The position numbers were made by a program, and so were the translations under genes. Positions 1,634-22,481 of a DNA stretch of 37,377 bases are shown in pieces. The notes under the pieces are model-generated. The model saw only the letters and a list, made by a program, of their open reading frames with translations. It made no database searches and had not been told where the DNA came from. Within the stretch, counting starts at the first letter, position 1, and each line of letters starts with the position of its first letter. The stretch lies in assembly GCF_900659865.1 (NCBI RefSeq), contig NZ_LR213799.1, positions 1 through 37,377 of the forward strand. Direction: 5' to 3'. The DNA comes from Hyella patelloides LEGE 07179 (lineage in GTDB: Bacteria; Cyanobacteriota; Cyanobacteriia; Cyanobacteriales; Xenococcaceae).

Positions 1634-2740
1634 ATGAAGATAGCTTTAGTTCACGATTATTTGACACAAAGAGGTGGGGCAGAAAGAGTATTTGAAATGC
1701 TCTGTTCCTACTTTCCTCAAGGTGATATTTATACATCTGTTCATCATGAGGAAAAAACAGTAGAAATTGAAGGTAGAGAAGTACACACAACCTTTCTGCA
1801 AGATATCCCAGGATCGACTAGCCATTTTCGCTTGTTTGTTCCTTTGTATTATCCAGCATTCCGCTCCTTAGACCTTCAAGAGTACGACTTAATTATTAGT
1901 AGTACCTCCAGTTTTGCCAAAGGAGTACGCAAAAAGCCAGGAGCAATGCATATCTGCTTTTGCCATAATGTAACTCGTTTTCTATGGGATACTAAAATCT
2001 ATCTTCAAGAAAACAATAGCTATCAATCATTTTCTCCTCTAATCAATCAAGTCTTTAATCCGATTCGGAAAGTTGACTTAGAATGCGCTCAAGAGCCAGA
2101 TCTTTACATCGCTAATTCTTCTACTGTCGCTAAAAGAATCAAAAAATACTATAAAAGAAACGCTCTTACAGTTAACTATCCTATAGATACCAGTAAATTT
2201 ATTTTTTCTGATGCCAAAGAAGAATATTATTTGATATCTTCTCGCATGATTAGTTACAAACGACTCGATATAGTTATTGAGGCATTTAACTGGCTTGGCT
2301 TACCTCTAATCATCATTGGTGATGGTCCAGAAAGAGCGCGATTAGAATCTTTAGCTTTAGATAATATCAAGTTTCTTGGTTATGTCGAGGATGAATTACG
2401 CGCTAATTTAATGGCAAAAGCAAAAGGTGTAATTGTCATGGCTTTAGAAGATTATGGCTTAGTACCTATTGAAGCCAACGCTAGTGGAACTCCCGTAATT
2501 GCCTATGGTGCAGGGGGTGTTTTAGATACTCAGATTGACGGTGTCACAGGGATTTTATTTTCACCTCAAACTCCAGAAGCACTTCATAATGCTTTATTTA
2601 GAGCAGACCGAACTGACTGGGATTATCAACAAATCAGAAATCATGCGGTTGACAATTTCTCTGAGTCAGTATTTTTTAGTAAGATTAAACAAATTATTGG
2701 GGAATTTTGCGGTAACTCCGCATTAGAGGTTTTTAGTTAA
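1634..2740 (+). CDS. GT4-type glycosyltransferase (GT-B fold), first gene of EPS locus
   Basis: 368 residues, normal for a single-domain GT-B enzyme. The N terminus (MKIALVHDYLTQRGGAERVF) is the Rossmann-like acceptor domain with a glycine pair typical of GT4 mannosyl- and glucosyltransferases. The C-terminal half has the nucleotide-sugar-binding EX7E element, E272 and E280 in EDYGLVPIE, followed by ASGTPVIAYGAGG. No membrane segment is seen, so it should act at the cytoplasmic face, adding a sugar to a lipid-linked repeat unit. It opens a long plus-strand gene series; the next gene, a Wzc-type regulator, begins 18 bases after its stop, so the two are very probably co-transcribed. Start ATG at 1634 is preceded by AAGAGG at 1617-1622. 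Donor sugar cannot be read from sequence. Confidence 0.9.
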   Translation: MKIALVHDYLTQRGGAERVFEMLCSYFPQGDIYTSVHHEEKTVEIEGREVHTTFLQDIPGSTSHFRLFVPLYYPAFRSLDLQEYDLIISSTSSFAKGVRKKPGAMHICFCHNVTRFLWDTKIYLQENNSYQSFSPLINQVFNPIRKVDLECAQEPDLYIANSSTVAKRIKKYYKRNALTVNYPIDTSKFIFSDAKEEYYLISSRMISYKRLDIVIEAFNWLGLPLIIIGDGPERARLESLALDNIKFLGYVEDELRANLMAKAKGVIVMALEDYGLVPIEANASGTPVIAYGAGGVLDTQIDGVTGILFSPQTPEALHNALFRADRTDWDYQQIRNHAVDNFSESVFFSKIKQIIGEFCGNSALEVFS

Positions 2741-2758
2741 TAATTTAGCCCCAAAAAA

Positions 2759-4978
2759 ATGGAGCAAAGGATTGAAAATTATATGAATCAAAATGTTTAC
2801 GATCTAGATAATTCTACAGAATTAGGCTACGGCGAAATATTTTCTATTTTTTGGCGACGTCGCTCTTATTTTATTGGAATTTGTGGTGGAGTCTTAGCCT
2901 GTATGATTCCTTTGGTTTTGACTCAAAAACCTGTTTACAGAAGCTCAATGCAAATGCTAGTAGAGCCGAACTACGAGGATAAAGATAATAGAGGTGATTT
3001 CGATCCGATTGAATCCAGTATCGAGATTGACTATGCCACTCAATTAAATTTAATGCGTAGTTCACAATTGTTAGGTAGAGCAGTCGTCAAATTACGACCT
3101 TCTTATCCCGATATTACTACTGAAGAAATTCAGAACTATCTAGTAGTTTCTCAAGTAAGAGAACAAGAAGATAAGAAGGAAGTAGGAACTAAAATTTTCC
3201 AAGCAGTCTACAAGGATGAAGATGCCGAAAAAACCCAGCGAGTTCTAGAGGCAATTCAAGAGGTTTATTTAGAATACAACTTAGAACAACAAGATAAAAG
3301 ACTTCGAGAAGGTTTAAGCTTTATTAATCAGGAAATACCAGAAGTTCGGCAAAAGCTAACCAACGCCGAAAGAAACCTCGAGGTGATGCTGACTAGATAT
3401 AATTTGATTGCACCACAAACAGAAGCTATTGATATATCTAAATTACTAACTAATACTAGGCAACAAAGAGAAGAGTTGAAAGCTCAGTATAAACAAACTC
3501 AAAGTAAATACGAGTCTCTTGAACAGCAATTAGCAACCACAGGAAACGTTGATTCTGTAGATTCAAGATTAAGTTTATCCAGTCGCTATCAAAACTTATT
3601 GAATGAGTTACAAAGAATAGATATAGAACTAGAAACACAACGGAGTAGATTCACTGACTCTAACCCTATAGTTCAAGGTTTATTAACAGAACGTCGTCAA
3701 AAACAACAGCTACTAGAAAAAGAAGCTGGCAACATTTTGGGGTCAACTAATCTTCAAGTAAGTAGTTCTGATAATCTAGAAAGCCGTGGTCAATTAGATA
3801 GTTCTAATTTAGAGCTAGCAGAAGCCTTAGCTTCCACTAGAAATGAATTGATTGGGCTGGAATCGAGAGAAAGAAGTCTAGCACTTACAGAACAGAAACT
3901 CAAAGAAAAACTCAATCAATTTCCCGATTTAATCGCTCAATACAATAGCTTAGAGCAAGAAGTTGCAGTTCACCAAGCCACTCTCAAAAAACTACTAGAA
4001 TCCAGACAAGAAATTGGTATTGTCATTAACCGTGGCGGTTTTAGTTGGGAGATTATTGAGCCACCACAACAGGGGTTACAAATAAGTCCCAATATAACTC
4101 AAGATTTGGTACTGGGCGGAATTGTCTCTGTGTTTTTAGGTGCAGTTTCCGTAGTTATTATGGAAGCTTCTGATAATAAAATACGCGTTTCTAGGCAGTT
4201 ACAAGAGAAGGTTAACTTCCCATTACTGGGTACAACTCCAGGGTTATCTAAGATCAAAGATAGTCAGTTTTCAGTCCGCTTACCGTTTTTCTCTGGTAAC
4301 GATCAAGAGACTATTCCTCTTCAAGTTATTGAGTGGCTACCCTTCCGTGAATCTCTCGATTTGGTTTATGAGAATATTCAATTAATGTCTCAGAACTCTC
4401 TGATTAATTCTATAGCAATTACTAGCTCGATCGCAGGAGAAGGAAAATCAACAATTACTCTGGGTTTAGCTTTGAGTGCTGCTCGTCGGCGCAAAAAAGT
4501 CTTGGTGATTGATGGGGACTTACGTTGTCCTACTTTACACGAAAAACTCGATATTTCTAATGGTGTGGGGCTTTCTGACTTACTTGATGGCGTAACCAGT
4601 GTTCCCACTGTTCAAGAAATTTCTCGTGCGGGTTCCACAATCAGTGTTTTAACTTCTGGCTCTGCTACGAGCGACCCTGTAAAATTACTTAGTTCGGGTA
4701 GATTGCAAAATTTGATCGCGCATTTTGAGAAGACTTACGACCTAGTATTAATTGATACTCCTCCTGCAATTGGCATGGTAGATGCGATTAAAATTGCTTC
4801 TTCTTGTAGTGGAACAGTGGTGGTAGCTCGTTTAGAGAAAGCTAATTTCGCCGAGCTAATGGAAACCTATGGCTTACTCGGAAGGATTAATGTGCTGGGA
4901 ATGGTAGCCAATGACTCCAGAGAGGTACAGCAAAGATATGCGAAGAATAAACGTTATTTGCCTTCTGCTGAGGTGTAA
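2759..4978 (+). CDS. Wzc/ExoP-like polysaccharide co-polymerase fused to BY-type tyrosine kinase
   Basis: 739 residues, the size of full-length Wzc proteins. A cytoplasmic lead is followed by a first membrane helix (about 37-56), a long periplasmic Wzz domain rich in coiled coil (about 170-420) and a second helix (about 448-468). The kinase domain follows: Walker A AGEGKST with K563, Walker A' VLVIDGDLRCP, and Walker B LVLIDTPP. In this family the protein controls chain length and export together with Wza, through cycles of tyrosine autophosphorylation in the C-terminal tail. Here the tail (QQRYAKNKRYLPSAEV) has only two tyrosines, a reduced cluster. The chosen ATG has no clear ribosome site; a second ATG at 2783 would shorten the protein by eight residues and is equally possible. 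It sits between a glycosyltransferase and a sugar-phosphate transferase, as expected for a Wzy-dependent pathway. Confidence 0.93.
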   Translation: MEQRIENYMNQNVYDLDNSTELGYGEIFSIFWRRRSYFIGICGGVLACMIPLVLTQKPVYRSSMQMLVEPNYEDKDNRGDFDPIESSIEIDYATQLNLMRSSQLLGRAVVKLRPSYPDITTEEIQNYLVVSQVREQEDKKEVGTKIFQAVYKDEDAEKTQRVLEAIQEVYLEYNLEQQDKRLREGLSFINQEIPEVRQKLTNAERNLEVMLTRYNLIAPQTEAIDISKLLTNTRQQREELKAQYKQTQSKYESLEQQLATTGNVDSVDSRLSLSSRYQNLLNELQRIDIELETQRSRFTDSNPIVQGLLTERRQKQQLLEKEAGNILGSTNLQVSSSDNLESRGQLDSSNLELAEALASTRNELIGLESRERSLALTEQKLKEKLNQFPDLIAQYNSLEQEVAVHQATLKKLLESRQEIGIVINRGGFSWEIIEPPQQGLQISPNITQDLVLGGIVSVFLGAVSVVIMEASDNKIRVSRQLQEKVNFPLLGTTPGLSKIKDSQFSVRLPFFSGNDQETIPLQVIEWLPFRESLDLVYENIQLMSQNSLINSIAITSSIAGEGKSTITLGLALSAARRRKKVLVIDGDLRCPTLHEKLDISNGVGLSDLLDGVTSVPTVQEISRAGSTISVLTSGSATSDPVKLLSSGRLQNLIAHFEKTYDLVLIDTPPAIGMVDAIKIASSCSGTVVVARLEKANFAELMETYGLLGRINVLGMVANDSREVQQRYAKNKRYLPSAEV

Positions 4979-5007
4979 CAACAATATTAAGAGGAAACGA
5001 AACAACT

Positions 5008-5862
5008 ATGAGCAAAAATAATGTCTGGATCACTGCTTTCAAAACCATCGACTTAAGCTTTGACTCCAGCAAAAATTCTCCTTCTACAAGTCCTCGTCAT
5101 GTCAGATGGCGTAATAAAATTTTGTGGGTAAGTACTAACGGTGGTATGGGACTTTCAGAGTTGCCAGCCCTCAAGTCACAATGGTGGTTAATTAATTGTT
5201 TAAAAAAGTCTCCCATTGATAAGATTTGTCTTACGCCTCAATTAGAAGCAGCAGAAGCAGAGATTTGGGCTAAAGCAGGCAAAAAAGCCCAAAAAAAAGT
5301 ATTTTTGCGAACATTGCGCGATCGCAAACTGTTTTTACTCCAAAATAGTTGGGCTTGGAATCTCAAAAGAAGTATTGACTTTGTGATGGCTTTATTGATT
5401 TTGTGGTTACTGAGTCCTGTGATGTTAGTGATGATTGGCAAACAAAAACTAGCAGGTAAGCCTATCTTTGAAAAACAAAGATGTGTAGGGAAAAAAGGGT
5501 TACTGTTTGAAACTTTTCACTTTACTAGAAATCGTAGCGGTCGAAGAGCGTTCAAATTTAGCCTGAACAATTTACCCCAGTTAATTAATGTGTTGCGGGG
5601 AGAAATGAGCTTTGTCGGTCGTTACCCTTACTCTTTGGATGAAGCTCTAAGTCTCAACGATCAACAGCGCAAAGTGTTAAATGTGGTTCCTGGGATTGTC
5701 GGTTCTCAGTTTCAGCGTTTGCCACAAGCAGATACCCCAGACATCTTTTTACAAGATCGTGAATATTTAACTAATTGGTCTTTGGGCTTAGACCTCAAAA
5801 CTTTACTCCTCCATTTGCCTTTGGCTTTGTTGGGTAAAAGTCCTTCCCAAAAAACTACTTAG
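5008..5862 (+). CDS. HepC-like bacterial sugar (phosphoglycosyl) transferase with altered active site
   Basis: 284 residues. Residues 1-110 form a cyanobacterial N-terminal extension of unknown role; 118-145 is the membrane-associated hairpin (WNLKRSIDFVMALL... LLSPVML) of monotopic phosphoglycosyl transferases. The conserved core continues with QRCVGKKG (157-164), LPQLINVLRGEMSFVG (189-204) and VPGIVG (227-232). In this superfamily the catalytic Asp-Glu pair lies in the LDELPQ motif; here it reads LNNLPQ, so both acidic residues are Asn (N187, N188), and VGPRP is VGRYP. The stretch between FETFHF and the motif is also shorter than usual. It resembles the HepC group known from heterocyst envelope polysaccharide synthesis. 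It may be a non-catalytic partner or use other residues. GAGGAAAC at 4990-4998 supports the start. Family firm, activity uncertain. Confidence 0.82.
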   Translation: MSKNNVWITAFKTIDLSFDSSKNSPSTSPRHVRWRNKILWVSTNGGMGLSELPALKSQWWLINCLKKSPIDKICLTPQLEAAEAEIWAKAGKKAQKKVFLRTLRDRKLFLLQNSWAWNLKRSIDFVMALLILWLLSPVMLVMIGKQKLAGKPIFEKQRCVGKKGLLFETFHFTRNRSGRRAFKFSLNNLPQLINVLRGEMSFVGRYPYSLDEALSLNDQQRKVLNVVPGIVGSQFQRLPQADTPDIFLQDREYLTNWSLGLDLKTLLLHLPLALLGKSPSQKTT

Positions 5863-5948
5863 TGGCAGATTTTACTCAGGAAAATCGAGTTTCTGGAGAC
5901 TAATCTCCGAATTTACTTCCATTTCTAATTTAGGAATCAATTAAATAA

Positions 5949-7292
5949 ATGTTCCAGAATGTCGGTAAAAAAGTTAATTGGCTGATTCAAGGAAAAGGAA
6001 GTGTTGCAGCCACCGCTCAAACCATGATTACTATGGTAGGTATTTTAGCCATTAACGTAATCACAGGAATGATTACAGCAAGGACTTTGGGGCCAGAAGG
6101 TAGAGGGGAGCAAGCAGCCTTGATTTTGTGGCCAGAATTTATGGCAAATGTGATTACTTTGGGTATTCCTTCTGCTTTAGTTTATAATTTGCGACGCTAT
6201 CCCGAAGAAAGAAGCAATTTCTTTTCGGCTGCGGTTATTTTATGTACTGTATTGGGTATTGGCTCGGCTATTGTAGGGATTGTTTTTTTACCCCAATGGT
6301 TATCTCAGTATCCCACAGAGACAATTCGGATGGCTCAGGTGTTGATGCCGATTGTCCCGATTTTTTTACTCGCTCAATTATTTGCAGTGGCTTTAGATGC
6401 TTCTTCGCAGTTTGCGATTTCTAATTTAGGTCGCTACATGATGCCTGTAGGAACTCTAATACTGCTCGGTGGTTTGGCAATCTCTAATAAAATTACTCCT
6501 TATACTGCTGCTTTGGCATACATTTTGCCTGGCATTGTGGTTTTTGCTTCCCGCGTAGCTTACCTGAAAAAAATCTTTAAGTTTAAATGGTCTGGGTTAC
6601 GGAAAACTTACCGCAGGTTGATGAGTTATGGGGTGCGCTCTTATGGTGTGGAGTTAGTAAAAACTCTATCAGGGCAATTGAGTCAGGTGGTGATTATCGG
6701 TCTTTTAAGTAGTACTAATTTAGGAATTTATGTGGTGGCGTTGAAGCTATCGCGCATGATGAACGTGTTCCAAACTTCTTTTGTGACGGTACTCTTCCCT
6801 AAAGTAGCTGGTCGCCCAGTAAAAGAAGTCGTAGCTGTTACAGGGAGAGCAGTTAGAGTTAGTTTGGCTTTGACTTGTTCTGCGGGGCTGGTAATTAGTT
6901 TTCTCGCACCGATAGTTTTGAATGCACTGTATGGTCAAGAATTTCTAGCAGCGATCTCTGTTTTTCGGATTTTACTGATTGAAATTATTATTAGTGGTAC
7001 TGTCTGGGTCTTTTTACAGGCTTTTATGGCTGTGGGTAAACCAGGAGTAGTAACCATTTTGCAAGGTTTGGGGGTTGCTGTAAGTGTTCCTCTGATGTTT
7101 TTACTGATTCCTCAATATGGATTGGAAGGTGCGGGTATTGCTCTACTTTGTTCTAGTTCTATTAGATTGATTTTAGTTTATTCAAGCTATGGCTTAGTTT
7201 TAAAAGTATCTCCTCCCAGTTTGTTACTCAACAAAAAAGATTTAGATTATGTTTTTCAACAAGTTCGTTCCAAGCAGAAAAAACGGATTTAA
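5949..7292 (+). CDS. Wzx-type polysaccharide flippase (MOP superfamily)
   Basis: 447 residues, almost all membrane-embedded, with about 12-14 hydrophobic helices separated by short basic loops. The N-terminal pattern (ITGMITARTLGPEGRGEQAALILWPEF) is the signature of the polysaccharide-synthesis branch of the MOP/MATE exporters. Such proteins flip undecaprenyl-linked repeat units from the cytoplasmic to the periplasmic face. The position after the Wzc and sugar-transferase genes and before more glycosyltransferases and a Wzy-like protein fits this. It begins 86 bases after the preceding stop. Function as a flippase is inferred from family and context; the lipid-linked substrate is unknown. Confidence 0.9.
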   Translation: MFQNVGKKVNWLIQGKGSVAATAQTMITMVGILAINVITGMITARTLGPEGRGEQAALILWPEFMANVITLGIPSALVYNLRRYPEERSNFFSAAVILCTVLGIGSAIVGIVFLPQWLSQYPTETIRMAQVLMPIVPIFLLAQLFAVALDASSQFAISNLGRYMMPVGTLILLGGLAISNKITPYTAALAYILPGIVVFASRVAYLKKIFKFKWSGLRKTYRRLMSYGVRSYGVELVKTLSGQLSQVVIIGLLSSTNLGIYVVALKLSRMMNVFQTSFVTVLFPKVAGRPVKEVVAVTGRAVRVSLALTCSAGLVISFLAPIVLNALYGQEFLAAISVFRILLIEIIISGTVWVFLQAFMAVGKPGVVTILQGLGVAVSVPLMFLLIPQYGLEGAGIALLCSSSIRLILVYSSYGLVLKVSPPSLLLNKKDLDYVFQQVRSKQKKRI

Positions 7293-7394
7293 TTAAATTG
7301 TTTAACATAATTACTAATTATAAAAATGTCGATAAGTTATCATGCAGTATATATAAAAGCATAAATCTACAGCCAATTTTTTAACTAAAAAATC

Positions 7395-8555
7395 ATGAAA
7401 ATTTGTTTAGTAGCAATTAATTTTATTAAACATAATGGCGAAGGCAGAGTAAATTATGAAATCGCCCTAAAAGCTCTTGCCCAAGGTCATAATGTGACCT
7501 TAATAGCTCACAAGTTTGCTGAAGAAATCAAGCAACATCCCCATGCTACAGTTATTCAATTAAAATCATCAAAATTACCGACAACTATCCTCAAAAATTT
7601 TGATTTTTATCGCCAAACTAATGCTTGGTTAAAAAAGCACGGCAGTAAATTTGATTTTATTCAAGTAAGTGGTGTTAGTGCTTCATTCCCCGCAGATACT
7701 TATACCGTTCATTTCTTCCATGATACCTGGCTGAATTCTCCGTTTCATCCTTGGCAATTGAAACGTAATAGTTACGGTTTATATCAATTAATTTACGGTA
7801 AATTGTTAGCTAGAAGACAGAAAAAAGCCTATCAACAAGCTAAATTTTTAATTGCAGTTTCCGAAAATTTGCGACAAGAATTAATTGATTATGGGTTTGA
7901 GCCAGATAAAGTAAAAGTGATTAACAACGGAGTTGATTGTCAAGAATTTTCTGGACAAAATTCAACCACCAATGAACGTAAGTCTTTAGGATTACCTTCT
8001 CAAGTTCCGTTAGCTCTCTTCATTGGAGATGTGAAGTTACCACGTAAAAATTTAGATACGGTACTCCGAGCTTTAACAGACGTTCCCCAACTCCATCTGG
8101 CGGTGGTAGGTAGATTAAGAGGGAGTAATTACTATCCTCAGCTAGCGGTCGAACTGGGAATTGGCGATCGCGTTCAGTTTCTGGGTTTTCGTCAAGATGT
8201 GGCTGCCATTATGCAATCTGCCGACTTTTTTGTCTTACCTTCGCGTTACGACACCTTTGGCATGGTGGTGTTAGAAGCTATGGCAAGTGGCCTACCCGTA
8301 GTAATTACGCAAAATATGGGGGTATCTAGTTTAGTAACCCGAGAATCAGGCTTTACCTTACCTGATACAGAAGATATTCCTACTCTAACCGCAGCAATGG
8401 CAGAATTGACCCATAACCCCAGTCTCAGAAAACAGATGGGAGCAGCAGGAAAAGCGATCGCTAAAGCTAACAGTTGGCAAGTAATGGCAAACCAATATTT
8501 AGAGTTATTGCCTCCCCCAAGCCCTTCCGATCAATCTGTAGTGGAAATTGTTTAA
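7395..8555 (+). CDS. GT4-type glycosyltransferase (GT-B fold)
   Basis: 386 residues, a usual length. The N-terminal domain begins MKICLVAINFIKHNGEGRVNY and includes AVSENLRQELIDYGF, the inter-domain SEN/S segment common in GT4 enzymes, then VINNGVDCQEF. The C-terminal domain has the donor-binding motif as DTFGMVVLE (D286 to E294, an acidic-X7-Glu version), followed by AMASGLPVVI. It is soluble or peripherally bound and would extend the lipid-linked repeat unit. It lies between the flippase and the Wzy-like gene. The 102-base gap upstream is AT-rich and could hold its own promoter, although nothing decisive is seen. Confidence 0.9.
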   Translation: MKICLVAINFIKHNGEGRVNYEIALKALAQGHNVTLIAHKFAEEIKQHPHATVIQLKSSKLPTTILKNFDFYRQTNAWLKKHGSKFDFIQVSGVSASFPADTYTVHFFHDTWLNSPFHPWQLKRNSYGLYQLIYGKLLARRQKKAYQQAKFLIAVSENLRQELIDYGFEPDKVKVINNGVDCQEFSGQNSTTNERKSLGLPSQVPLALFIGDVKLPRKNLDTVLRALTDVPQLHLAVVGRLRGSNYYPQLAVELGIGDRVQFLGFRQDVAAIMQSADFFVLPSRYDTFGMVVLEAMASGLPVVITQNMGVSSLVTRESGFTLPDTEDIPTLTAAMAELTHNPSLRKQMGAAGKAIAKANSWQVMANQYLELLPPPSPSDQSVVEIV

Positions 8556-8674
8556 CTAATTACCTGGACAAAATATACAAAATATACCAAGTATTCTCTA
8601 TTTTGTTGCCAAAGACAGCGCGTTCTCTACTCTCTAACTATTAATTTAGTTTTGTCTACCTACCTAATTTAGTA

Positions 8675-10153
8675 ATGACTAGCAGTAACTATACCTCGAA
8701 AAAAACTCCTTGGAATTTAGAACCAGCACCAGCGTGGACTGCCATGATTGGCATTATAGTATTAGGTCTAATTGGTGCAGTCCCAGGTTTAGGCAGAGTG
8801 GTTACTCTATTCTTTCCTGTAGCATCTTTGGTAGTGGGGTTTTTCTTATACAGTCGTTATCCAATTCTTTATCTAGGTTATACCTGGTGGCTTTGGTTTT
8901 TAACTCCTTTTGTGCGTAGATTGGCTGATTTTGGTAGTGGCTACACAGAACCCAGTCCCATACTATTGAGTCCTTTTTTGGTGACTGCTCTTTGCTTTAT
9001 CACCTTGTTTAAGCAGTTACCGAAGCTCAATAGTCAAGGTAAGTTAGGTACACCTTTTGTTTTAGCTTTCATTGGTTTGTTTTATAGCTTACTGGTAGGT
9101 ATTATTTATCGAGAACCCACAAAATTAGTAATTGCTACTCTTGAATGGTTTACTCCCGTTATTTTTGGCTTTCATCTCTATGTTAATTGGCGCAGTTATC
9201 CCCAAATTCAGCGCAATATTGAACGGGTTTTTCTCTATGGAGTACTAATTGTCGGGTCTTATGGCGTACTGCAATATGTAGCTTTGCCCCAATGGGATCG
9301 CATCTGGCTAACCAACGCCCCCATCGATAGTATTTGTAGTGGTGGGGTAGAAGTTCTCAAATGCCGAGTTTATTCGACACTTAATTCTCCAGAACCCTTT
9401 GCGGGCTTCATGGCTGCGGGTTTATTACTTTTGCTTTGTAGCACCAGTAGATTGAGTATGCCAGCGCAAATTGCAGGTTATCTATCTTTCTTGCTAGCAA
9501 TGGTGCGTAGTGGTTGGTTGGGCTGGTTCGCTGGTTTTTTGGCCTTAATTTTCTCTTTGAAAGAAAAGTTTCAAATTCGTTTAATTCTGGTATTTCTGAT
9601 TATGATAGTTTGCATTGCACCATTAACTCAAATTGAGCAATTCTCAGGGGTTACAGAGCGATTGGGAACCTTTGGCAACCTAGAGAATGATGGTAGTGCT
9701 GATGCTAGACAAGAAACCTATGAAGAGGTGTTGGGTGAAGCTTTGACTAACTGGTTTGGTCAAGGAATTGGTGGTAAGCAATACGACAGTACACTATTAG
9801 CTTTACTAATGAATTTGGGCTGGATTGGCACTATTTTCTATGGGGGAGGGATGCTGCTATTAATTTTGAATTTGTTTTATCAGTCAGCCAGTAGAAACGA
9901 TGCTTTTGCCACGGCGATGAGGGGGGTGGTGATGACCGTTGTGGCTCGCTTACCCCTAAATAGTCCTTTAAAAGAAGTTCAAGGAATTATTTTCTGGGGC
10001 TTTTTAGGTTTGGGAGTTGCAGCCCATCGTTATTATCAGTATCAAAAAATGCTCTCGTTGCGAGAAGCTAATGGCTATTCTCTAGAAGGTAAGGACGTGT
10101 CCACAGAATCGAATTTGGGGGCTTATATTGTCCGTGAAAGAGACAATATGTGA
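8675..10153 (+). CDS. O-antigen ligase/polymerase-like membrane protein (Wzy candidate)
   Basis: 492 residues with about ten to twelve hydrophobic segments from residue 20 onwards and a large extracytoplasmic loop in the second half. That loop includes ICSGGVEVLKCRVYSTLNSPEPF and TERLGTFGNLENDGSADARQ; the arrangement of a loop with R and NxPE-like residues followed by DARQETYEEVL is what is seen in O-antigen ligase/Wzy families. In a Wzy-dependent locus this protein joins flipped repeat units into a polymer in the periplasm. A ligase role cannot be excluded, because the two families look alike by sequence. It follows a glycosyltransferase at a 119-base gap. The C-terminal 40 residues are hydrophilic. 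Confidence 0.85.
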   Translation: MTSSNYTSKKTPWNLEPAPAWTAMIGIIVLGLIGAVPGLGRVVTLFFPVASLVVGFFLYSRYPILYLGYTWWLWFLTPFVRRLADFGSGYTEPSPILLSPFLVTALCFITLFKQLPKLNSQGKLGTPFVLAFIGLFYSLLVGIIYREPTKLVIATLEWFTPVIFGFHLYVNWRSYPQIQRNIERVFLYGVLIVGSYGVLQYVALPQWDRIWLTNAPIDSICSGGVEVLKCRVYSTLNSPEPFAGFMAAGLLLLLCSTSRLSMPAQIAGYLSFLLAMVRSGWLGWFAGFLALIFSLKEKFQIRLILVFLIMIVCIAPLTQIEQFSGVTERLGTFGNLENDGSADARQETYEEVLGEALTNWFGQGIGGKQYDSTLLALLMNLGWIGTIFYGGGMLLLILNLFYQSASRNDAFATAMRGVVMTVVARLPLNSPLKEVQGIIFWGFLGLGVAAHRYYQYQKMLSLREANGYSLEGKDVSTESNLGAYIVRERDNM

Positions 10154-10310
10154 GTAGGCTTGTGCGCTCGTTAGGATAAAAAACTTTCTCGTATAGATAA
10201 TAAGAGTGGGGGTAGGGCAGGTTTGGGGAAAAAGACAAAATTATCATTATTAAATTTATTTATGCGTATTTAGTTATAGGGTAAAGGCAAATATTTTTGG
10301 AGAATCAACA

Positions 10311-13605: not shown

Positions 13606-13637
13606 GCATCACTAATTACTAATTATTTTAGAGAGTT

Positions 13638-14783: not shown

Positions 14784-14795
14784 AAGTTAAGTGCG

Positions 14796-14891
14796 ATTGA
14801 TCGCTAAATAAACTATATCAATAGTTTTTATATCACCCCATAAAGAGAATAACAAAATAAGTAAGTTAATAGTCACCAAATAGCGATCAAT
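14796..14891. repeat. Spaced 11-bp inverted repeat containing GATCGC
   Basis: ATTGATCGCTA at 14796-14806 is exactly complementary to TAGCGATCAAT at 14881-14891, 74 bases apart. Both arms contain a part of the HIP1 octamer. It lies in the 277-base gap between the last glycosyltransferase and a sulfotransferase gene. The role is unknown; chance pairing of two HIP1-like words is possible. Confidence 0.35.
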
Positions 14892-15060
14892 AAGAATGAT
14901 ACTAAGTAAATATACTTGCCAGAAAAAATAATAGTAAGCTAAATTTTGACTGAGAGGGATATCGCGGTTTCCGAACCATAAACTATCAAGGTGTTGACGA
15001 AAGAAACCAAAGTATATCGCTTTCTACAAACAACAAATTAAATCGCGAGAGGTAATAATA

Positions 15061-15645
15061 ATGAAAAACAAAGTTTTTGGTTTAGGTTTAAGTAAGACAG
15101 GAACATCTTCTCTCACTAGAGCTTTAACCGTACTAGGATACAAATCAGCCCACTTTATTAAAGTGCATCAATTTGATAAGTATGATGCTATTACAGATAC
15201 TCCCGTTCCCGTTATCTATCCAGCTTTAGACCAACAATATCCCAACGCCAAATTTGTCTTAACCCTAAGAGATGCAGAAGATTGGGTTAAATCATTTGCA
15301 GGTCATATTGAAAGACAAGAATGGACAAAAAGATATCCTAAAATGCGAAGTGATGCCTTACTAGCAACCATGCAACTCTACGGCACTATCTATTTTGACC
15401 GCCAGAAATTTTTGGATGGATATAACCGCTACAACGAAGAAGTAAAAGCCTACTTTGCAGATAGAAAAGATGACTTATTAATTATGGATATTTGTCAGGG
15501 TGATGGATGGGAAAAACTTTGCCCTTTTCTCGGTGTTCCTATTCCTGAAACTCCTTTTCCTGTAAAAAACGCTCAGAAAAATATTACTAAACCCAAACAA
15601 TTAGCCAGCCGTTTTTTACATAATATAGGTTTGTTAGAAGGATAG
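15061..15645 (+). CDS. Small sulfotransferase-family protein
   Basis: 194 residues. A P-loop-like 5'-phosphosulfate motif occurs near the start, GLSKTGTSSL at residues 8-17, and a 3'-phosphate-binding motif FVLTLRDAEDWVKSF at 65-79. This is the layout of the compact sulfotransferase family in which the loop begins almost at residue 1 and a DXXEW-like segment follows LRD. In that family the partner is PAPS; the acceptor is unknown. A good ribosome site, GAGAGG at 15047-15052, lies before the ATG. It is followed by a broken sulfotransferase gene and a glycoside hydrolase, so it may be the second sulfating enzyme of the polysaccharide. A few members of this family have other roles, so the exact reaction is uncertain. 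Confidence 0.82.
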   Translation: MKNKVFGLGLSKTGTSSLTRALTVLGYKSAHFIKVHQFDKYDAITDTPVPVIYPALDQQYPNAKFVLTLRDAEDWVKSFAGHIERQEWTKRYPKMRSDALLATMQLYGTIYFDRQKFLDGYNRYNEEVKAYFADRKDDLLIMDICQGDGWEKLCPFLGVPIPETPFPVKNAQKNITKPKQLASRFLHNIGLLEG

Positions 15646-15845
15646 TAATACAATCTGCATGATAAAAGTTTTATTAAGCATTAATTAAGAGCTTTTTACG
15701 ATTAACTAAAGTGAGCAGTGTTTGTTTCAATCAATAGCTATTGATTATTATTATATTATTTATTTCAAAAATATTATCTGAAGTAGTTTTGAATAGTTAA
15801 GATTTCATAAATCATTATTTCAACTAACTTTAAAGGTAGCTAAAA

Positions 15846-16127
15846 ATGACTAAGAAAACATATAGTAATCATCAATGTTTTCAAAAAATAAAACCGTTAT
15901 TAATGTCCTCATGGCTGCAAATTCAAAAGAATGCTTTGTGGTCTGAATATTGGAAAAAAATACGAAAAAAGCGTCCTCCTCGTGAGATTCATGCTTTTTG
16001 TATTGGTCTTCCTAAAACTGGAACTAATTCTATTGCCAATATGCTGGAATGTAAAACCGCCCATGAACCAGAAAAATCTATTTTATTCGATCTTTACAAA
16101 GCCAACATTAAAGGTCGAATAAGATAA
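15846..16127 (+). pseudogene. Truncated sulfotransferase (N-terminal 93 residues only)
   Basis: The reading frame starts at ATG 15846 and gives a basic leader followed by IHAFCIGLPKTGTNSIANML, a clear PAPS-binding loop at about residues 50-69, and AHEPEKSILFDLYKANIKG. It then stops at TAA 16125-16127. The 3'-phosphate-binding element and the rest of the fold, more than 150 residues in relatives, are missing, and no continuation is seen in the next 220 bases in any plus-strand frame. A fold-back element starts about 100 bases downstream. The gene is best read as a remnant whose 3' part was lost by insertion or deletion. It may still be translated as a short peptide. Confidence 0.75.
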
Positions 16128-16230
16128 ACCGTCTCTAGTTCAAAACCAGTAATGTTTTAAATAACATTTTTTGGGAACGCATGAAACCATGAATAGGCAA
16201 TAGCTAATTAATAATAAGTAATCTTCATTC

Positions 16231-16308
16231 TGACCAACGGTCACAGCAGGCTTCGTCGTTTTACGGCGGAGTAATCTGTGACTCGGTAACTCCTTATCTT
16301 AAAACGAC
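16231..16308. repeat. Dense fold-back element beside the truncated sulfotransferase
   Basis: Several exact inverted pairs occur within 80 bases: TGACC-AAC-GGTCA (16231-16243), GTCACAG (16240-16246) with CTGTGAC (16276-16282), GTCGTTTTA (16255-16263) with TAAAACGAC (16300-16308), and GGAGT (16268-16272) with ACTCC (16289-16293). The second and third pairs interleave, so the element could form alternative or pseudoknotted folds. It is more GC-rich than its surroundings. It may be the end of a mobile element or a miniature element; no transposase is visible. Confidence 0.55.
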
Positions 16309-16373
16309 CGTTCCTCTATCTGAACGAAGTATAAACGAGGTAAGGCTTGCTATTAAATAAAAAAACTAAAGCA

Positions 16374-18368
16374 ATGATCAAGTACAAAAGATATTTGAGT
16401 CTATCCATAGCTATCTTAGCTCTGGTATCGTGCATCAATATATCATCAGCAAAAAATTTAGTTGATAAGTATATAGACCCCGCTTATTATGAAAGCATTC
16501 CTTTTGGAGAGCATTCTCATTGGGTACAGCCCTGGCGAGCCTATCAAGAAACTATTCCTGCTCACCAGTTTATTGATGGTATTGGTGTGGTTTTTAACAT
16601 GAATGTCAAAAAGACAAATGTTAATCCCAATCTTATTACAGAGATGCTTGCTCGTTATGGAGTAAAGCAAGCTCGTATAGAGATTAATTGGAATCAAATC
16701 AATTACGAAGACGAAACTCAGATTAATTATGCTGATGAAATTCGCACTAAGCTATTAGCTCTGCAAAAACAGAATATTCGCCCCCTCGTCTTACTTAATG
16801 CAAGTCAAGGCGGGCCCTGTCCGATGCTGACATTTCGTAAAACCTTATCCAGAAATGCCAATGCTGGGGATACCAAAATCAGACTAGAAGACACTAGAGG
16901 CATAGAAGCTAATTATAGCGGTCTTTCTAACATGACAAAAAAAGCCTGGGCTGCCGAGATTCTCATTACAGAAATAGATGGCAATTGGGTTACTTTATCA
17001 AAACCACTACCAGACTCGATAGACATCAACACAAAAGTAAATATTGCCACTTTAAAATATCGCCCTTTTTCACCACCTGATACCGCAGATTATCAAAAAA
17101 CTGTAGCTGGATGGCAGAATTATGTGGGTACTGTGACAAGATTTGTTACGGAAACTTTAGGCACAACAAACAATTCAGATAGAGGTTTTGATTTAGAGAT
17201 TTGGAATGAGCTTTCTTTTGCTTCAGACTTTCTCTATATCAATAAGTATTACGATAAGGAAATCTACAAATATAAGAAAAATAGTATTTGGCAAAACCTA
17301 GTAACGGAAACTATTAACTATGTTGAGGCTCATTCCCAAGACTTTCAAGGAATCGAAATTAGTAATGGTTTTTCTAACACAACTCCTTGGCCAGCTTCTT
17401 CCCAAATGCCTCCTCGTATAGTTGCTCTCAATAAACATCCTTACCGCAGTCGCAAATACTTTCCTCAACAAGAGTATAAAGGTAGTCAAGCCCTAGATGC
17501 TTTGGGCAATGAAACCCAATTTACCCCTACATACTCAATTTGGTTTCCTGAATACTTCGCTACTTTTTTACAAACCGAAACCATACTTAGAGATATTGCA
17601 CCATTTCCCTCTGAGTTTGGTGGAGTGGTTCATGGTCGTAATGCAAGAGTTGTAGATGGCGAGGTTTTACCTATGACAACTTGGATTACGGAGGTTAATA
17701 TTCATCCTCAAGAAGACGATGCTGATGTAACTGAGGCTGAAGCCTTAGCTCTCAAAGCAAAGGCAGCAATGCGCTATTTTTGTTTTTATCTCAACAAGGG
17801 AGTAGAAAGAGTTTATCTTTATAATACGTTGGGTGGAAACAAGGGATACGGTATTGTGCAAGATAATTTTGCTCAATATGCTTCTCAAGCAGGTCAACAA
17901 TATCCTCAACAAGACCAAGAATATGTATCCCCAACTTTACTTACTACCAGTCGTATTTTGGCGCAAATGAAAGATGGTCTTGACCCTAATTTAAGTAATC
18001 TCAGACAGCTAGAAGTAATATCAATTCAAGAACAACACAACAACTATCAATTTGAAGGAGATGGCTCGAAAGCTCATCCGAATCTTTATAACAGAGAACT
18101 ATTTACATTTTTGCCTTATCAAGTAAACGAAAATAAGTTTGTAATTCCTTACTATATAATGACCAGAGACATTAAACAAGATTTACCTCCCGAAAATTAT
18201 CAATTAAGTCTTCGAGGATTTCAAGGGGATAAACTACAAGTCAAAATCTATGACCCACTCCAAGATAGATATTTACCAGAAGTTTCAGTCGAACAAAAAC
18301 AGGAGAAAACAGTAATTGACCTTGAAGCAACAGATTATCCTTACTTATTAATAGTAGAAGAGCAATAA
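16374..18368 (+). CDS. Exported clan GH-A glycoside hydrolase (GH39-like), possible lipoprotein
   Basis: 664 residues from ATG 16374; an in-frame TTG at 16347 would add nine residues before the signal peptide and is less likely. Residues 1-27 are a signal peptide (KYKR then a hydrophobic core); it contains LVSC, which fits a lipobox, and also ISSA followed by K as an alternative cut. A TIM-barrel-like region follows, with ARYGVKQARIEINW. The general acid/base candidate is E279 in EIWNELSF and the nucleophile candidate is E440 in ITEVNIHP, the spacing expected for retaining clan-A enzymes. Residues about 565-664 form a beta-rich C-terminal domain. It closes the polysaccharide locus and may trim or release the polymer, as PslG does in the Psl system. 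Substrate unknown; family number not certain. Confidence 0.75.
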   Translation: MIKYKRYLSLSIAILALVSCINISSAKNLVDKYIDPAYYESIPFGEHSHWVQPWRAYQETIPAHQFIDGIGVVFNMNVKKTNVNPNLITEMLARYGVKQARIEINWNQINYEDETQINYADEIRTKLLALQKQNIRPLVLLNASQGGPCPMLTFRKTLSRNANAGDTKIRLEDTRGIEANYSGLSNMTKKAWAAEILITEIDGNWVTLSKPLPDSIDINTKVNIATLKYRPFSPPDTADYQKTVAGWQNYVGTVTRFVTETLGTTNNSDRGFDLEIWNELSFASDFLYINKYYDKEIYKYKKNSIWQNLVTETINYVEAHSQDFQGIEISNGFSNTTPWPASSQMPPRIVALNKHPYRSRKYFPQQEYKGSQALDALGNETQFTPTYSIWFPEYFATFLQTETILRDIAPFPSEFGGVVHGRNARVVDGEVLPMTTWITEVNIHPQEDDADVTEAEALALKAKAAMRYFCFYLNKGVERVYLYNTLGGNKGYGIVQDNFAQYASQAGQQYPQQDQEYVSPTLLTTSRILAQMKDGLDPNLSNLRQLEVISIQEQHNNYQFEGDGSKAHPNLYNRELFTFLPYQVNENKFVIPYYIMTRDIKQDLPPENYQLSLRGFQGDKLQVKIYDPLQDRYLPEVSVEQKQEKTVIDLEATDYPYLLIVEEQ

Positions 18369-18949
18369 AAAAGACATGATAGTATCTATGAGTTAAAAAT
18401 TATACTTCGTTTCTAGAAAAATTTAAGCTATATTTATTTTAAGCAAACTATACAATACAAACTGTTTTTGATTTATTTATTAAACTTCAATTGTCAGTAT
18501 TTATACATAGAAATTGATATGTAAAGCATCATAATTAACATGAAATAGGTTCATTTACATACTATATTGAGCTAAATTTGTCATGAAAAAGTTAAATTTA
18601 GCTCTGATTCTATACATTTTCTTCATATCAAGAACAAGAAATGATGAATCATCCCTAGTTGACATTGATTTTACCTATGATCTATATGAGAAAATGAAAA
18701 TAAGATAAAAGCATAATATCTAACGTAGTAGTTAGTTATATTGCTTTTAGCCAAAATCTTTTTGATTATTCTCTATTATAATTGCCGTTGATTTAAAAAA
18801 TTTTAAGATAATTCATTAATATTTAGTAAATCAACAATTACATATTACTTAATATAAGATATTTAAAAGCTAAATTATGGTGTGAATAGCAAAAGGGATA
18901 ACATGAAAAGCTGAAACACTATTCATTAAAAGCCCCTGAGAAGTACATA
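18369..18949. other. AT-rich interval without a convincing gene
   Basis: 581 bases of very low GC content between the glycosidase and the NB-ARC gene. It holds an 11-bp inverted repeat (18569-18604). A 41-codon frame (ATG 18583 to TAA 18708) starts with a hydrophobic stretch but has no ribosome site and begins inside the inverted repeat. No other structure is apparent. The promoter of the NB-ARC gene must lie here, but no well-spaced pair was found. Confidence 0.55.
18569..18604. repeat. 11-bp perfect inverted repeat
   Basis: GAGCTAAATTT at 18569-18579 pairs exactly with AAATTTAGCTC at 18594-18604 across a 14-base loop. It lies 345 bases before the NB-ARC gene and 200 bases after the glycosidase. 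No T run follows on the plus strand, so an ordinary terminator is not indicated; an operator or an element end are alternatives. Confidence 0.45.
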
Positions 18950-20287
18950 ATGATTCAAAATAATCTTGATTTTCAAAAAGCTATTTATTTAGTAGATAGT
19001 AGAATAAAACCCCAACATCTCAATAAAATACAGGAAATTATTTTAATACAGTCTTTGGAGGGAAAAACTTATTCACAGATTGCCTCAGAATATAATTATG
19101 ATATGGAGTATATCAAGACTTCTGGTTCTGAACTCTGGAAATTATTGACTAAAGCTTTTGGAGAGCAAATTAGAAAAAATAATTGTACTCCTTTTATAAG
19201 AAGAAGAATATTAGAATCTACTTCTAAAAATACCTCTTTAGTTGACACCATAAAAAAAACTCACACAACTTTTTCTGAGCAAGAGATTAATAATATTTCT
19301 TTGATAGCTTCAGGAGTACCTAATTTTCAAGGAAGAGAGCGAGAATTAACTCAATTTAAAAGTTGGAGTCATGACCCTAATTGTCGATTTATTATGATTA
19401 AGGGAATGACTGGATGTGGAAAAACTACACTGGCTGCAAAAACCGCAGAAGTCTTAAAGCAAGATTTCTATCGAGTTATTTCTTTACCAGTCAGTGAAAA
19501 TCTTAAAGTAAAAAACTTGATCGAATTTTGTTTGCATAGCTTAGAACCTAATTTAGAGATTTCTTCCGATATTAACAAACTGTTAGTAGATTTAGCTTTT
19601 TATTTACAAAAGTATCGTTGTCTTTTAATTTTAGATGATTTAGATTCAATTTTTGAATTAAAAAGAATGATACCTCACTATCGTTCTAATTGTGAGCAAT
19701 ATGCTGCATTTTTACGTTGCTTGATTAATACTAGACATCAAAGTTTGGTAGTTGCTACGAGTCGTATTGATTTAAAGCAACTAGATTATTATGGTAGCAG
19801 TGATAATTTAAAGCTATTATCTTTAGAGGGATTAGAAAGTGATATTCTTTGGTCTATTTTTGAGAATGAAATTAGTCAAGATATCTCTCAAAATATCTGG
19901 GAGAGAATTTGTAATTACTATCGAAAAAATCCCGAACTAATTAAAATAATTGTCAGAAATCTTAGCTACTTACCAATATCTGACACTAATATATACAAGC
20001 AATATTATCCTTCTCTTGAAGAAGTAGATTATATCATTGAAAATGAGTTAAAGCTTTTGGACAAAATAGGCAAAGAGGTACTTTATTATTTAGCTTTTAG
20101 CTGTAACAATAATTCCTTAGATCGGTTACTGTACAGTGTTAGTCATCCACGAAACAAAGTACTAAAAGTTCTTGATGCAATACAAGATACCTTCTTGATG
20201 AAACAAGATAATTATGTTTTACAGCCAATGTTCAAACACTATCTACAACGTCATTTAGTGAAAACAGCAATGGCAAATGATAAATAG
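18950..20287 (+). CDS. HTH-NB-ARC (STAND) ATPase without C-terminal repeat sensor
   Basis: 445 residues. Residues about 5-90 form a helix-turn-helix-like domain (LEGKTYSQIASEYNYDMEYIKTSGSELWKLL) found at the N terminus of many cyanobacterial NB-ARC/WD40 proteins. The NB-ARC part begins with FQGRERELTQFKSW at about 125; Walker A is MTGCGKTT with K158, Walker B is LLILDDLD with D229 and D230, and VVATSR is the sensor-1 arginine. A winged-helix-like region follows to the end. Relatives usually continue with WD40, TPR or pentapeptide repeats that sense a ligand; this one ends after the winged helix. It could be a regulator, a truncated relic or a defence protein that uses another sensor. No frameshifted repeat region is seen in the 378 bases downstream. 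Codon use is more AT-rich than in neighbours. Confidence 0.85.
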   Translation: MIQNNLDFQKAIYLVDSRIKPQHLNKIQEIILIQSLEGKTYSQIASEYNYDMEYIKTSGSELWKLLTKAFGEQIRKNNCTPFIRRRILESTSKNTSLVDTIKKTHTTFSEQEINNISLIASGVPNFQGRERELTQFKSWSHDPNCRFIMIKGMTGCGKTTLAAKTAEVLKQDFYRVISLPVSENLKVKNLIEFCLHSLEPNLEISSDINKLLVDLAFYLQKYRCLLILDDLDSIFELKRMIPHYRSNCEQYAAFLRCLINTRHQSLVVATSRIDLKQLDYYGSSDNLKLLSLEGLESDILWSIFENEISQDISQNIWERICNYYRKNPELIKIIVRNLSYLPISDTNIYKQYYPSLEEVDYIIENELKLLDKIGKEVLYYLAFSCNNNSLDRLLYSVSHPRNKVLKVLDAIQDTFLMKQDNYVLQPMFKHYLQRHLVKTAMANDK

Positions 20288-20665
20288 TAATAATTACTGA
20301 GTTTTGTTTTGATAGTTTTTATTTTGCGATCGCAATTATACACCCATTAGCTAAAACAAATCTAAAGAAAATCTAAAATAAATAGCAACATCTTTATTAT
20401 CAATAGTAATCTAATTACAATAAAATCTTAAATTATCAAATATTTTGCTTAAAAACTAATATAATAAGAGTTATATTTAATCTTTCTGTGGTTAGATGCA
20501 TTAATTATTTATTTATTTTGCAGTAGTTTATTTCATTTTGGTGATTGTTTTTCGACGATCCCAATTGATAACTCCTTCTACATAGAAAGACATAAAAAAT
20601 GACTTACTTCAATTGGTAATTTATTTCAACTTAATTAAAATTATAATTTTGAAGTTTTTAAGAAA
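20288..20665. other. AT-rich interval
   Basis: 378 bases with one HIP1 octamer (near 20326) and otherwise AT-rich sequence with no stem-loop or reading frame worth reporting. It presumably carries the promoter of the DUF1830 gene. No trace of WD40-like repeats continuing the NB-ARC gene was found in the plus-strand frames. Confidence 0.5.
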
Positions 20666-20911
20666 ATGATTTCTACATCTCTTCCTCAAAAAACAAATTT
20701 TATTATTTGTTCTTATGTTAATGTAACTAGCACTATTCAAATAGCTCGTATTGCTAATATTGAGCATTGGTATTTAGAGCGTGTTATTTTTCCTGGTCAA
20801 CGTCTTATTTTTGAAGCTCCTGCTAATGCTATTGTCGAAATCTACACTAGCCAGTTAGCTAATGCTATTTTGGCAGAAAAGGTATCCTGTCAGAAGATAG
20901 CTATGGATTAG
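20666..20911 (+). CDS. DUF1830 domain protein
   Basis: 81 residues. The pattern IICSYVNVTSTIQIARIANI, then WYLERVIFPGQRLIFEAPANAIVEIYTS, is the conserved core of DUF1830, a small family seen in cyanobacteria. No signal peptide or membrane segment is present, and the length matches the family. The function is unknown. The family is probably all-beta and soluble. It lies alone between the NB-ARC gene and a long non-coding stretch, so its neighbourhood adds nothing to function. The start ATG has AAG at 20659-20661 as a weak ribosome site. Confidence 0.88.
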   Translation: MISTSLPQKTNFIICSYVNVTSTIQIARIANIEHWYLERVIFPGQRLIFEAPANAIVEIYTSQLANAILAEKVSCQKIAMD

Positions 20912-21328: not shown

Positions 21329-21653
21329 AAGACAGGAATGAATTTACACTCTCAAGCAGAATGTCCTAAGCTAAATCCGTAACGCTATATCATCAAAGAA
21401 CGCGAGTATTGACTCATTTTTGTTTGTCATTATTAAATACCTCAACACCTTGGGCAGTGACATAAAGGGTTACTATAGCGAAAATAAGCCACAAACAATA
21501 TAAAACTGTGTTTTATCATTAGTTCTTTGTCTTATGTTAGTACTCTCAAATTATTTAGGGTTACTAAAGCTTATTTTCTACATATTTTAGATAATTCACA
21601 CATATATCTGTATTGGGATAATTTTCACCATCAAAAACTAGCGATATCCAACT

Positions 21654-22481
21654 ATGAATACCGTAAAAAAGTATTATCAAATTCAAAAACTTAAAGGATA
21701 CAATTTTATTGATGCTACTTTTCTGGTTCCTCAAAAAGTTTTTAATCAAATCAAAATTAAATTAACTAAAGATAAGTGTAATGAAATTGTAGGATTTGGT
21801 TGTTATGATATACCTCTATTAGCCTCATACTCTAGAAGCGGAACAAACTGGATTCGTTATATTGTTGAAAGTCTATCTAATCGCCCTACACCTGGGCAAA
21901 CCAGGCTTGTTGAAGGAAATGATTATGTTATCGATCGCTCTCATCAGGCTTACTTAGTAATGCATAAACATGAAGCTGTTATCCTGGTTGTGAGAGATTA
22001 CAGAGAATGCTTATTACGACACCATAAACAATTATGGGAAAAGTATCAAGATGTTGCAGCGTTTCTCAATGAAAAAAATGTTCCTCAAGCTCCAATTTGG
22101 TATATCAAAAACATTGAAGCCTTCGAGCGATTTGATGGTAAAAAGCTTCTTGTTTATTACGAAGATTTAATGTTAGAGCCAAAAATAACTATCGAGAATA
22201 TTGCCGAATTTTTATCGTTTGACCCCAATCGAGTAAAAGACTTCATCGATAAGCTTGACTACCATTTTCAAAATTCAGTGTCTTCTTATACTTTAGGTGG
22301 TTATGGTCATGCTTCTGTGACAACATCGACAAAAAGCCTCGATCATCATTCAAAGTCAAATTTAACACCAAAGCAAATTCTGGAATTTGACGATTTTTAT
22401 TTTTCTAATTTTCCCCATCTTTCCCAAAAGTACTTGTCTCGATATGACAAGAGAAAAGCAACTTCCGACATCGAACCATAA
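21654..22481 (+). CDS. Sulfotransferase-domain protein (Sulfotransfer_1-like)
   Basis: 275 residues. Residues 1-50 have no clear match. The PAPS-binding loop is ASYSRSGTNWIRYIVESL starting at residue 57, and the 3'-phosphate-binding motif is LVVRDYRECLLRHH at 111-124. Then come YYEDLMLEP and the helical part IENIAEFLSF, which match the cytosolic-type sulfotransferase pattern (LxYEDL). The protein is soluble. It lies 3.3 kb beyond the glycosidase, separated from the polysaccharide locus by NB-ARC, DUF1830 and repeats, but may act on the same polymer or on a lipid or small molecule. The start at ATG 21654 has no strong ribosome site. Confidence 0.85.
   Translation: MNTVKKYYQIQKLKGYNFIDATFLVPQKVFNQIKIKLTKDKCNEIVGFGCYDIPLLASYSRSGTNWIRYIVESLSNRPTPGQTRLVEGNDYVIDRSHQAYLVMHKHEAVILVVRDYRECLLRHHKQLWEKYQDVAAFLNEKNVPQAPIWYIKNIEAFERFDGKKLLVYYEDLMLEPKITIENIAEFLSFDPNRVKDFIDKLDYHFQNSVSSYTLGGYGHASVTTSTKSLDHHSKSNLTPKQILEFDDFYFSNFPHLSQKYLSRYDKRKATSDIEP

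Follow-up and report, generated by a model that had tools for sequence, protein, structure and literature searches.

The contig NZ_LR213799.1 of the cyanobacterium Hyella patelloides LEGE 07179, analysed here over its whole length of 37,377 nucleotides (C34; hereafter the window), carries an exopolysaccharide (EPS) locus, which an initial annotation had described as producing a sulfated polymer. The genome (G000) has 8,063,701 bases in 675 contigs; the available part of its published description gives an Ion Torrent draft of ~ 8.1 Mb, 675 contigs and 37.57% GC from a non-axenic culture (PMC7381351). Domains were assigned by Pfam and NCBIfam scans of the proteins of 29 window open reading frames (ORFs), and all of the window genes described in this and the following paragraph lie on the plus strand. 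The first is a group 1 glycosyltransferase, GT_a (1634–2740, Pfam family GT4), in the position of alr2832 in the heterocyst envelope polysaccharide (HEP) island of Anabaena. It is followed by a Wzc-type polysaccharide co-polymerase (PCP) and tyrosine autokinase (2759–4978; TIGR01007, 112 bits, cut-off 108), a HepC-like priming sugar transferase of the Bac_transf type (5008–5862; HepC model NF045514, 166 bits, cut-off 140), a Wzx flippase at the site after HepC usually taken by HepA (5949–7292, Pfam), a second group 1 (GT4) glycosyltransferase, GT_b (7395–8555, Pfam), and a Wzy polymerase (8675–10153). Wzy was recognised from a Wzy_C match of 24.7 bits (below the cut-off of 31.7), about eight transmembrane segments in a simple hydropathy count, and its position.

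A sulfotransferase of family PF03567 with a tetratricopeptide repeat (TPR)-like N-terminal segment (10311–11315, 118.5 bits) separates Wzy from three further glycosyltransferases: the group 1 enzyme GT_c (11504–12673, Pfam), the weakly GT2-like GT_d (12781–13605), assigned from matches below the cut-offs and 77–85% identical in the genomes G014, G018 and G024, and the group 1 enzyme GT_e (13638–14783, Pfam). Beyond these lie a 194-residue sulfotransferase of family PF17784 (15061–15645, 142 bits), a 93-residue N-terminal remnant of another sulfotransferase (15846–16127), a 673-residue glycoside-hydrolase-like protein that may be secreted or anchored (16347–18368) and a STAND (NB-ARC) ATPase, a candidate dedicated regulator (18950–20287, Pfam). 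The Wzc, Wzx and Wzy machinery proposed in the initial annotation is therefore present, together with its five glycosyltransferases besides the priming enzyme; its three intact sulfotransferase genes do fall into three Pfam families (PF03567, PF17784 and PF00685), the last of them lying at 21654–22481. Two Poly_export proteins of the outer-membrane polysaccharide export (OPX) type are encoded on other contigs, so that Wzx, Wzy, PCP and OPX, the components of a Wzx/Wzy-dependent EPS system, are all found, Wzy by weak match and position and OPX in trans. One full adenosine 5'-phosphosulfate (APS) kinase and two weak matches are likewise encoded elsewhere in the genome; the proposed check for export and for synthesis of the sulfate donor 3'-phosphoadenosine 5'-phosphosulfate (PAPS) was thus borne out for the genome and not at the locus itself.

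The order of the genes from 1634 to 14783 is more than chance. Beside the Hyella genome we searched 79 relatives of its own family (f1), and the order is preserved in G018, in G014 as far as a contig edge within GT_e, and in both visible pieces of G024, with protein identities of up to 89% across the three. Trees of GT_a and of Wzc each place the window, G014 and G018 in one clade. GT_a is 59–83% identical at the same site ahead of Wzc-HepC in relatives and in loci of a second family, f33, and Wzy is 39–85% identical to the genes at the Wzy position of other loci (39–43% in f33). Ratios of nonsynonymous to synonymous substitution (dN/dS), calculated for 11–12 genes against each of G014 and G018 and for eight against G024 (the set excludes the 15061, 15846 and 21654 genes), lie between 0.05 and 0.32, with dS near saturation.

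The nearest relatives of this gene order are loci of the HEP-island type, as the HepC scores and the GT_a-Wzc-HepC order show. With the HepC model the window scores 166 bits, G014 181, G018 156, G002 254, G022 265 and G004 237, and HepA (938–960 bits) is the next gene after HepC in G002, G022 and G004. In a class sample of 291 genomes, 95 have HepC above the cut-off, and among the 30 best HepC loci HepA adjoins HepC, within a 1.5-kb flank, in 25. The remaining five comprise two short contig ends (L056 and L060), one locus with HepA one gene beyond (L065, seen in L117) and two with Wzx in that place (L071 and L076). Longer stretches were taken from 16 genomes, six of f33 and ten others, all picked for having HepC; the GT_a-Wzc-HepC order is found in 16/16, and HepA is missing from three of the ten others (L115, L118 and L121). 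All six f33 stretches also contain HepA and a gene homologous to the window wzy. In both of those checked (L108 and L113) an rfbC-type gene, for dTDP-4-dehydrorhamnose 3,5-epimerase, stands two genes ahead of GT_a. The available part of PMC4390870 gives the order of the Anabaena HEP island as rfbC, alr2831, the glycosyltransferase gene alr2832, alr2833, hepC and hepA; since the f33 order matches this, and f33 has the top HepC scores and island-like gene content, we take f33 to be heterocystous Nostocaceae.

We consider it probable that the locus, with the extent 1634–20287, is a derived HEP-island-type EPS cluster of a pleurocapsalean cyanobacterium. With the HEP island of Anabaena sp. PCC 7120 (alr2825–alr2841) it shares homologues of GT_a, Wzc, HepC and Wzy in the same order, and it differs in having Wzx for HepA, sulfotransferases (found in 0/6 f33 stretches), a glycosidase and a STAND gene. 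The GT_a-Wzc-HepC order and a HepC match above the curated cut-off are both present; because HepA is missing after HepC and Wzx is there instead, the locus is classed as a variant and not as a plain member. With the f1 loci of G002, G004 and G022 it has in common GT_a-Wzc-HepC, STAND with an adjoining GT_e, Wzy and the glycosidase, whereas those loci keep HepA and have other glycosyl- and methyltransferases. To our knowledge, there are no heterocysts in the group to which Hyella belongs.

The HepC-like protein of the window is probably catalytically dead. Alignments show that the Asp-Glu pair of the family motif (LDELPQ), which from PglC-type enzymes we take to be the catalytic dyad of an active polyprenyl phosphoglycosyltransferase, has changed to NN in the window protein, to HN in its G014 counterpart and to HK in that of G018, and that the KFRTM..DAE loop upstream of it is missing or unrecognisable in all three (deleted in the window). 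In the rest of the family the dyad is intact in G002, G005, G012, G015, G021, G022, G023, G026 and G043 and reads DK, half lost, in G004 and AN in G038. Across the 30 class loci, 18/18 rows outside f33 have the intact dyad, while the Glu is absent from 12/12 f33 rows (L047–L053, L057, L062, L068, L070 and L074), a likeness between the window and the heterocyst type of locus. The dN/dS of the window gene is 0.17 against G014 and 0.32 against G018, with dS near saturation, level with or above that of its neighbours (0.07–0.17 and 0.06–0.22, respectively). We infer that the protein has been retained as a non-catalytic partner and that another enzyme primes; in G018 a STAS-type priming transferase, XssP-like, adjoins the STAND gene. 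In a quick HepC tree the dyad losses of f33 and of the Hyella group fall in different places. The heterocyst HepC is accordingly predicted to be catalytically inactive, and the true priming enzyme is therefore to be sought elsewhere.

Wzx comes after the HepC-like gene in the window, G014 and G018, and the visible G024 piece begins within Wzx. A search at E values up to 1e-150, in which 13 candidates of each genome were scored, gave no HepA above the cut-off of 725 bits in G000, G014, G018 or G024, and no HepA match at all in G018 and G024. Matches below the cut-off, at 554 bits in G014 (81% complete) and 574 bits in G000, lie in a range that we take to hold other MsbA-like exporters. Contig C94 holds the highest-scoring HepA match in the Hyella genome, at 638 bits over 461 of 610 positions. 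This hepA-like gene (L107, G000:C94 13465–16878) is split at about residue 465–470 by an ORF for an IS605-type OrfB/TnpB transposase. In G233 and G239, which are of one genus in a different family, another Wzx lies directly behind a HepC with intact dyad (L118 7959–9422 and L076, respectively); that of G233 belongs to PF13440 (320 bits) and that of G239 is 89% identical to it. Because a separate family has a different Wzx after HepC, replacement of HepA by Wzx appears to have taken place at least twice, in the Hyella group and in G233/G239. It is not tied to sulfation, since G004 and G022 retain HepA with six and with four or five sulfotransferases. We also observed, in G008 (L042 7989–8678), a 229-residue HepA remnant, which matches the C-terminal third of HepA at 72% identity and adjoins secA near the glycosidase/Wzy EPS genes of that genome.

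The 10311 gene lies between wzy and GT_c in four of four genomes (the window's, G014, G018 and G024) at 75–84% identity, and its motifs PKVACSSFKR and VRNPWDRLTSAY, presumably those that bind PAPS, are intact and invariant across the four, as expected of a carbohydrate sulfotransferase of family PF03567. Among the other 76 relatives the best match has 128 bits and 39% identity. A scan of named genomes with the protein gave one relative, on a contig of an uncultured Pleurocapsa metagenome-assembled genome, which is not independent of G024 because it has the content of the G024 contig. A search of the PDB gave matches to the TPR-like N-terminus only. We regard the 10311 enzyme as the core sulfotransferase of this type of locus. 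The 15061 gene recurs at the same length and 81% identity in G024, and the G014 copy is shortened at its N-terminus; on the G018 contig two methyltransferase genes are found in its place. The 15846 ORF was correctly called a broken fourth sulfotransferase: it has no Pfam match and aligns over 36 residues (42%) to an intact 290-residue sulfotransferase adjoining GT_e in G024. As no match to the rest of that protein lies further downstream in the window, a simple frameshift, such as an Ion Torrent draft might contain, is not enough to explain it; repeats near the break were not informative.

That sulfotransferases define the core of the locus, as had been proposed, is unsupported because they vary between loci; they are variable add-ons. 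They occur in the stretches of 9 of 35 genomes (the window's, G014, G018, G024, G004, G022, G015, G261 and, in pieces, G023), with six in the HEP-type locus of G004 and four or five in that of G022. None was seen in the fetched stretches of G001, G002, G005, G008, G012, G017, G021, G025, G026, G038, G043, the six f33 genomes and nine others; these absences carry little weight, as the stretches are incomplete and the HEP core is not visible in those of G001 and G017. The leading alternative to our reading is that these enzymes do not sulfate the polymer and would act on small molecules, lipids or another polysaccharide. The solved relatives of the 15061 enzyme found in the PDB are named oxamniquine-resistance sulfotransferases and similar; sulfotransferase-like rows number dozens in the genome (35 for PF13469, 30 for PF00685 and 6 for PF03567, overlapping, in 8.06 Mb); and a Hyella polyketide synthase cluster with sulfotransferases is reported in the available part of PMC7381351. 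Set against this are the fixed place of the 10311 gene in all four genomes, both of its motifs invariant, and the sulfotransferases that other HEP-type loci have of their own, and we regard this alternative as unlikely. The initial annotation had named likeness to enzymes of small molecules or lipids as what would speak against it; this applies in part, to 15061 and, through a weak resemblance to cytosolic SULT1 enzymes, to 21654; 10311 alone belongs to a family, PF03567, whose animal members act on carbohydrates.

The glycosidase and the STAND gene complete the locus. In the 16347 protein, which begins with an N-terminal hydrophobic segment, the glutamates of a WNE (E288) and a TE (E449) motif are invariant in nine of nine homologues, itself included. 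This suggests, in an assignment made by eye, a glycosidase of clan GH-A (retaining type), with which it shares the two glutamates but no detectable sequence family; Pfam, NCBIfam and PDB searches gave no meaningful match. Homologues occur in 7/79 other relatives, and every contig that bears one also carries a counterpart of one or more of the window EPS or sulfotransferase genes; on that of G014 a truncated sulfotransferase is the only shared gene visible. In the class sample three genomes, including the window's, have a homologue, G158 in two copies. A short STAND gene adjoins GT_a-Wzc-HepC in 12 of 14 relatives (L038, L043, L089, L090, L092–L095 and L097–L100), a count that leaves out the 3.2-kb G024 contig L106, the window and G018. 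In the two exceptions it is not adjoining (L096) or not visible on an 8.8-kb contig (L091); none of five more distant STAND paralogues, taken as a control, has these neighbours. In G018 the STAND gene and the glycosidase share a contig, ~ 6 kb apart, and in many HEP-type loci of relatives the STAND gene adjoins the homologue of GT_e. From this linkage and the precedent of XssQ, the activator of the xss cluster, the STAND protein would be expected to regulate the locus. Ten STAND/GT_a intergenic stretches yielded no shared DNA motif clearly above shuffles except A/T runs.

That precedent belongs to the synechan locus, xss, of Synechocystis sp. PCC 6803, which the initial annotation had chosen as the nearest comparison. 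A shuffled xss-type sulfated EPS cluster would have the same kit, that is Wzx, Wzy, a PCP, several glycosyltransferases, at least two sulfotransferases of distinct subfamilies, a STAND protein close by and an OPX in trans, the OPX gene xssT lying outside xss in Synechocystis (available part of PMC8205485). The window proteins, however, match only the PCP, the priming transferase and two glycosyltransferases of the xss region, at 21–30% identity; a one-window search with XssA and XssE gave nothing significant (best E 0.02–0.03), and XssQ and the window STAND protein are not significantly similar. The XssQ consensus site, AAGTTNNAC as given in the available part of PMC8205485, occurs 0 times in the 37-kb window against 7.4 expected, and the HepC model gives XssP 82 bits against 166 for the window protein. 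The 29 scanned ORFs contain no histidine kinase or response regulator that could form an XssS/XssR-type pair, the window being the whole contig and its flanks lying beyond it. Homology with xss was rejected on the protein comparisons and the missing XssQ site, and we hold a shuffled xss-type cluster to be improbable: the Wzx/Wzy/PCP machinery, the presence of sulfotransferases and a STAND protein are common to both, while no homologous sulfotransferases, regulator or operator motif were found and the priming enzyme is of another class. The view that this is a Wzx/Wzy-type EPS locus with built-in sulfotransferases, unlike xss in order and content, is upheld by the comparison of gene order. A decaying locus without a product is more improbable still, for although the 15846 remnant, the HepC dyad loss with its dead priming enzyme, the lost HepA, the interrupted hepA-like gene on C94 and the Ion Torrent draft would suit it, the core ORFs are open, with dN/dS far under 1 in comparisons with one to three other genomes.

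Several observations count against a derived HEP-type locus working in the way we propose. The stretches of G002 and G008 have the glycosidase and show no sulfotransferase, so this type of locus does not require sulfation; sulfation of the polymer is itself predicted from the genes, and the solved relatives of the 15061 enzyme presumably act on small molecules. HepC activity without the dyad could in principle occur, and uniting the Hyella clade with f33 in one HepC group is not rejected by an approximately unbiased (AU) test (p-AU 0.086). The position of the Hyella clade is not settled by the Wzc tree, and support for the family node in the GT_a tree is modest (82/41). In the stretch of G217 (L121), GT_a-Wzc-HepC is accompanied by no recognised HepA or Wzx, and HepC loci without HepA are thus not always Wzx replacements. 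Outside the family, a STAND gene is found in one of the 16 HEP-type stretches, there as a longer protein, and in G017 the STAND gene adjoins GT_e in a stretch with no GT_a, Wzc or HepC. Finally, an AlphaFold2 single-sequence model of the 16347 protein had a mean pLDDT of 34, was unusable for recognising a (beta/alpha)8 fold and was discarded.

For the derived HEP-type cluster we propose the following scheme. A priming transferase encoded elsewhere, with the HepC-like protein as its non-catalytic partner, would start the repeat unit on undecaprenyl phosphate, and the five glycosyltransferases would assemble the unit. The 10311 enzyme as the main one, possibly with that of 15061, would sulfate the lipid-linked unit in the cytosol using PAPS; because PAPS is cytosolic, sulfation would most likely precede Wzx. 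Wzx would then flip the sulfated unit, Wzy polymerise it, and Wzc with the outer-membrane OPX encoded elsewhere export the polymer, which the secreted glycosidase may trim or remodel. The STAND ATPase would turn the locus on, in a role analogous, not homologous, to that of XssQ.

A wider reading, to which as a whole we give a little less than an even chance, extends this to the heterocyst. HepA would be the flippase of the repeat unit, because Wzx would have taken its place at least twice; HepC of heterocystous cyanobacteria and of the Hyella group would be a retained pseudoenzyme; the heterocyst coat would belong to a widespread family of EPS, with free exchange of the decoration module, including sulfation; and the branch in Hyella's family would be under the control of a local STAND ATPase. 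The exchange of HepA for Wzx is a natural replacement experiment that makes the role of HepA testable. The locus links the sulfated EPS of cyanobacteria to the heterocyst envelope polysaccharide, a system already studied by genetics, and the 10311 sulfotransferase and the linked STAND gene are singled out as candidates for test.

Sulfotransferases in cyanobacterial EPS clusters have been described before (available parts of PMC8205485 and PMC13125312); new here is a rearranged HEP-type cluster with a replaced flippase, a dead-looking HepC and exchangeable sulfation. In the literature available we found no paper stating such a reading, including the passages available of PMC4390870, PMC4365693, PMC8277102 and PMC12507012, and no title or abstract that connects HEP-type loci with sulfotransferases, although the supplements of PMC8205485 on sulfotransferase clusters of many cyanobacteria may include such loci. 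The main text of PMC8205485 names no Stanieria, Pleurocapsa, Hyella, Anabaena or heterocysts, that of PMC7381351 has no occurrence of Wzx or exopolysaccharide, and the searched part of PMC8277102, on the topic of hepA, the heterocyst and flippases, has no whole-word HepA.

Downstream of the locus, still on the plus strand, the domain scan identified a DUF1830 ORF (20639–20911), whose membership of the locus is unsupported. It and the STAND gene, both absent from the initial annotation, precede the PF00685 sulfotransferase gene (21654–22481, 40 bits), which had been counted as part of the locus; this gene has no counterpart in the related stretches searched, and its membership is also unsupported. 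Directly behind it, at 22593–24463, lies a DctQ/DctM pair of a TRAP transporter. HsdM and HsdR of a type I restriction-modification system follow at 25882–30401, HsdS not being recognised among the window ORFs scanned, and a gene for a tryptophan-halogenase-like flavoprotein occupies 35225–36895 on the minus strand.

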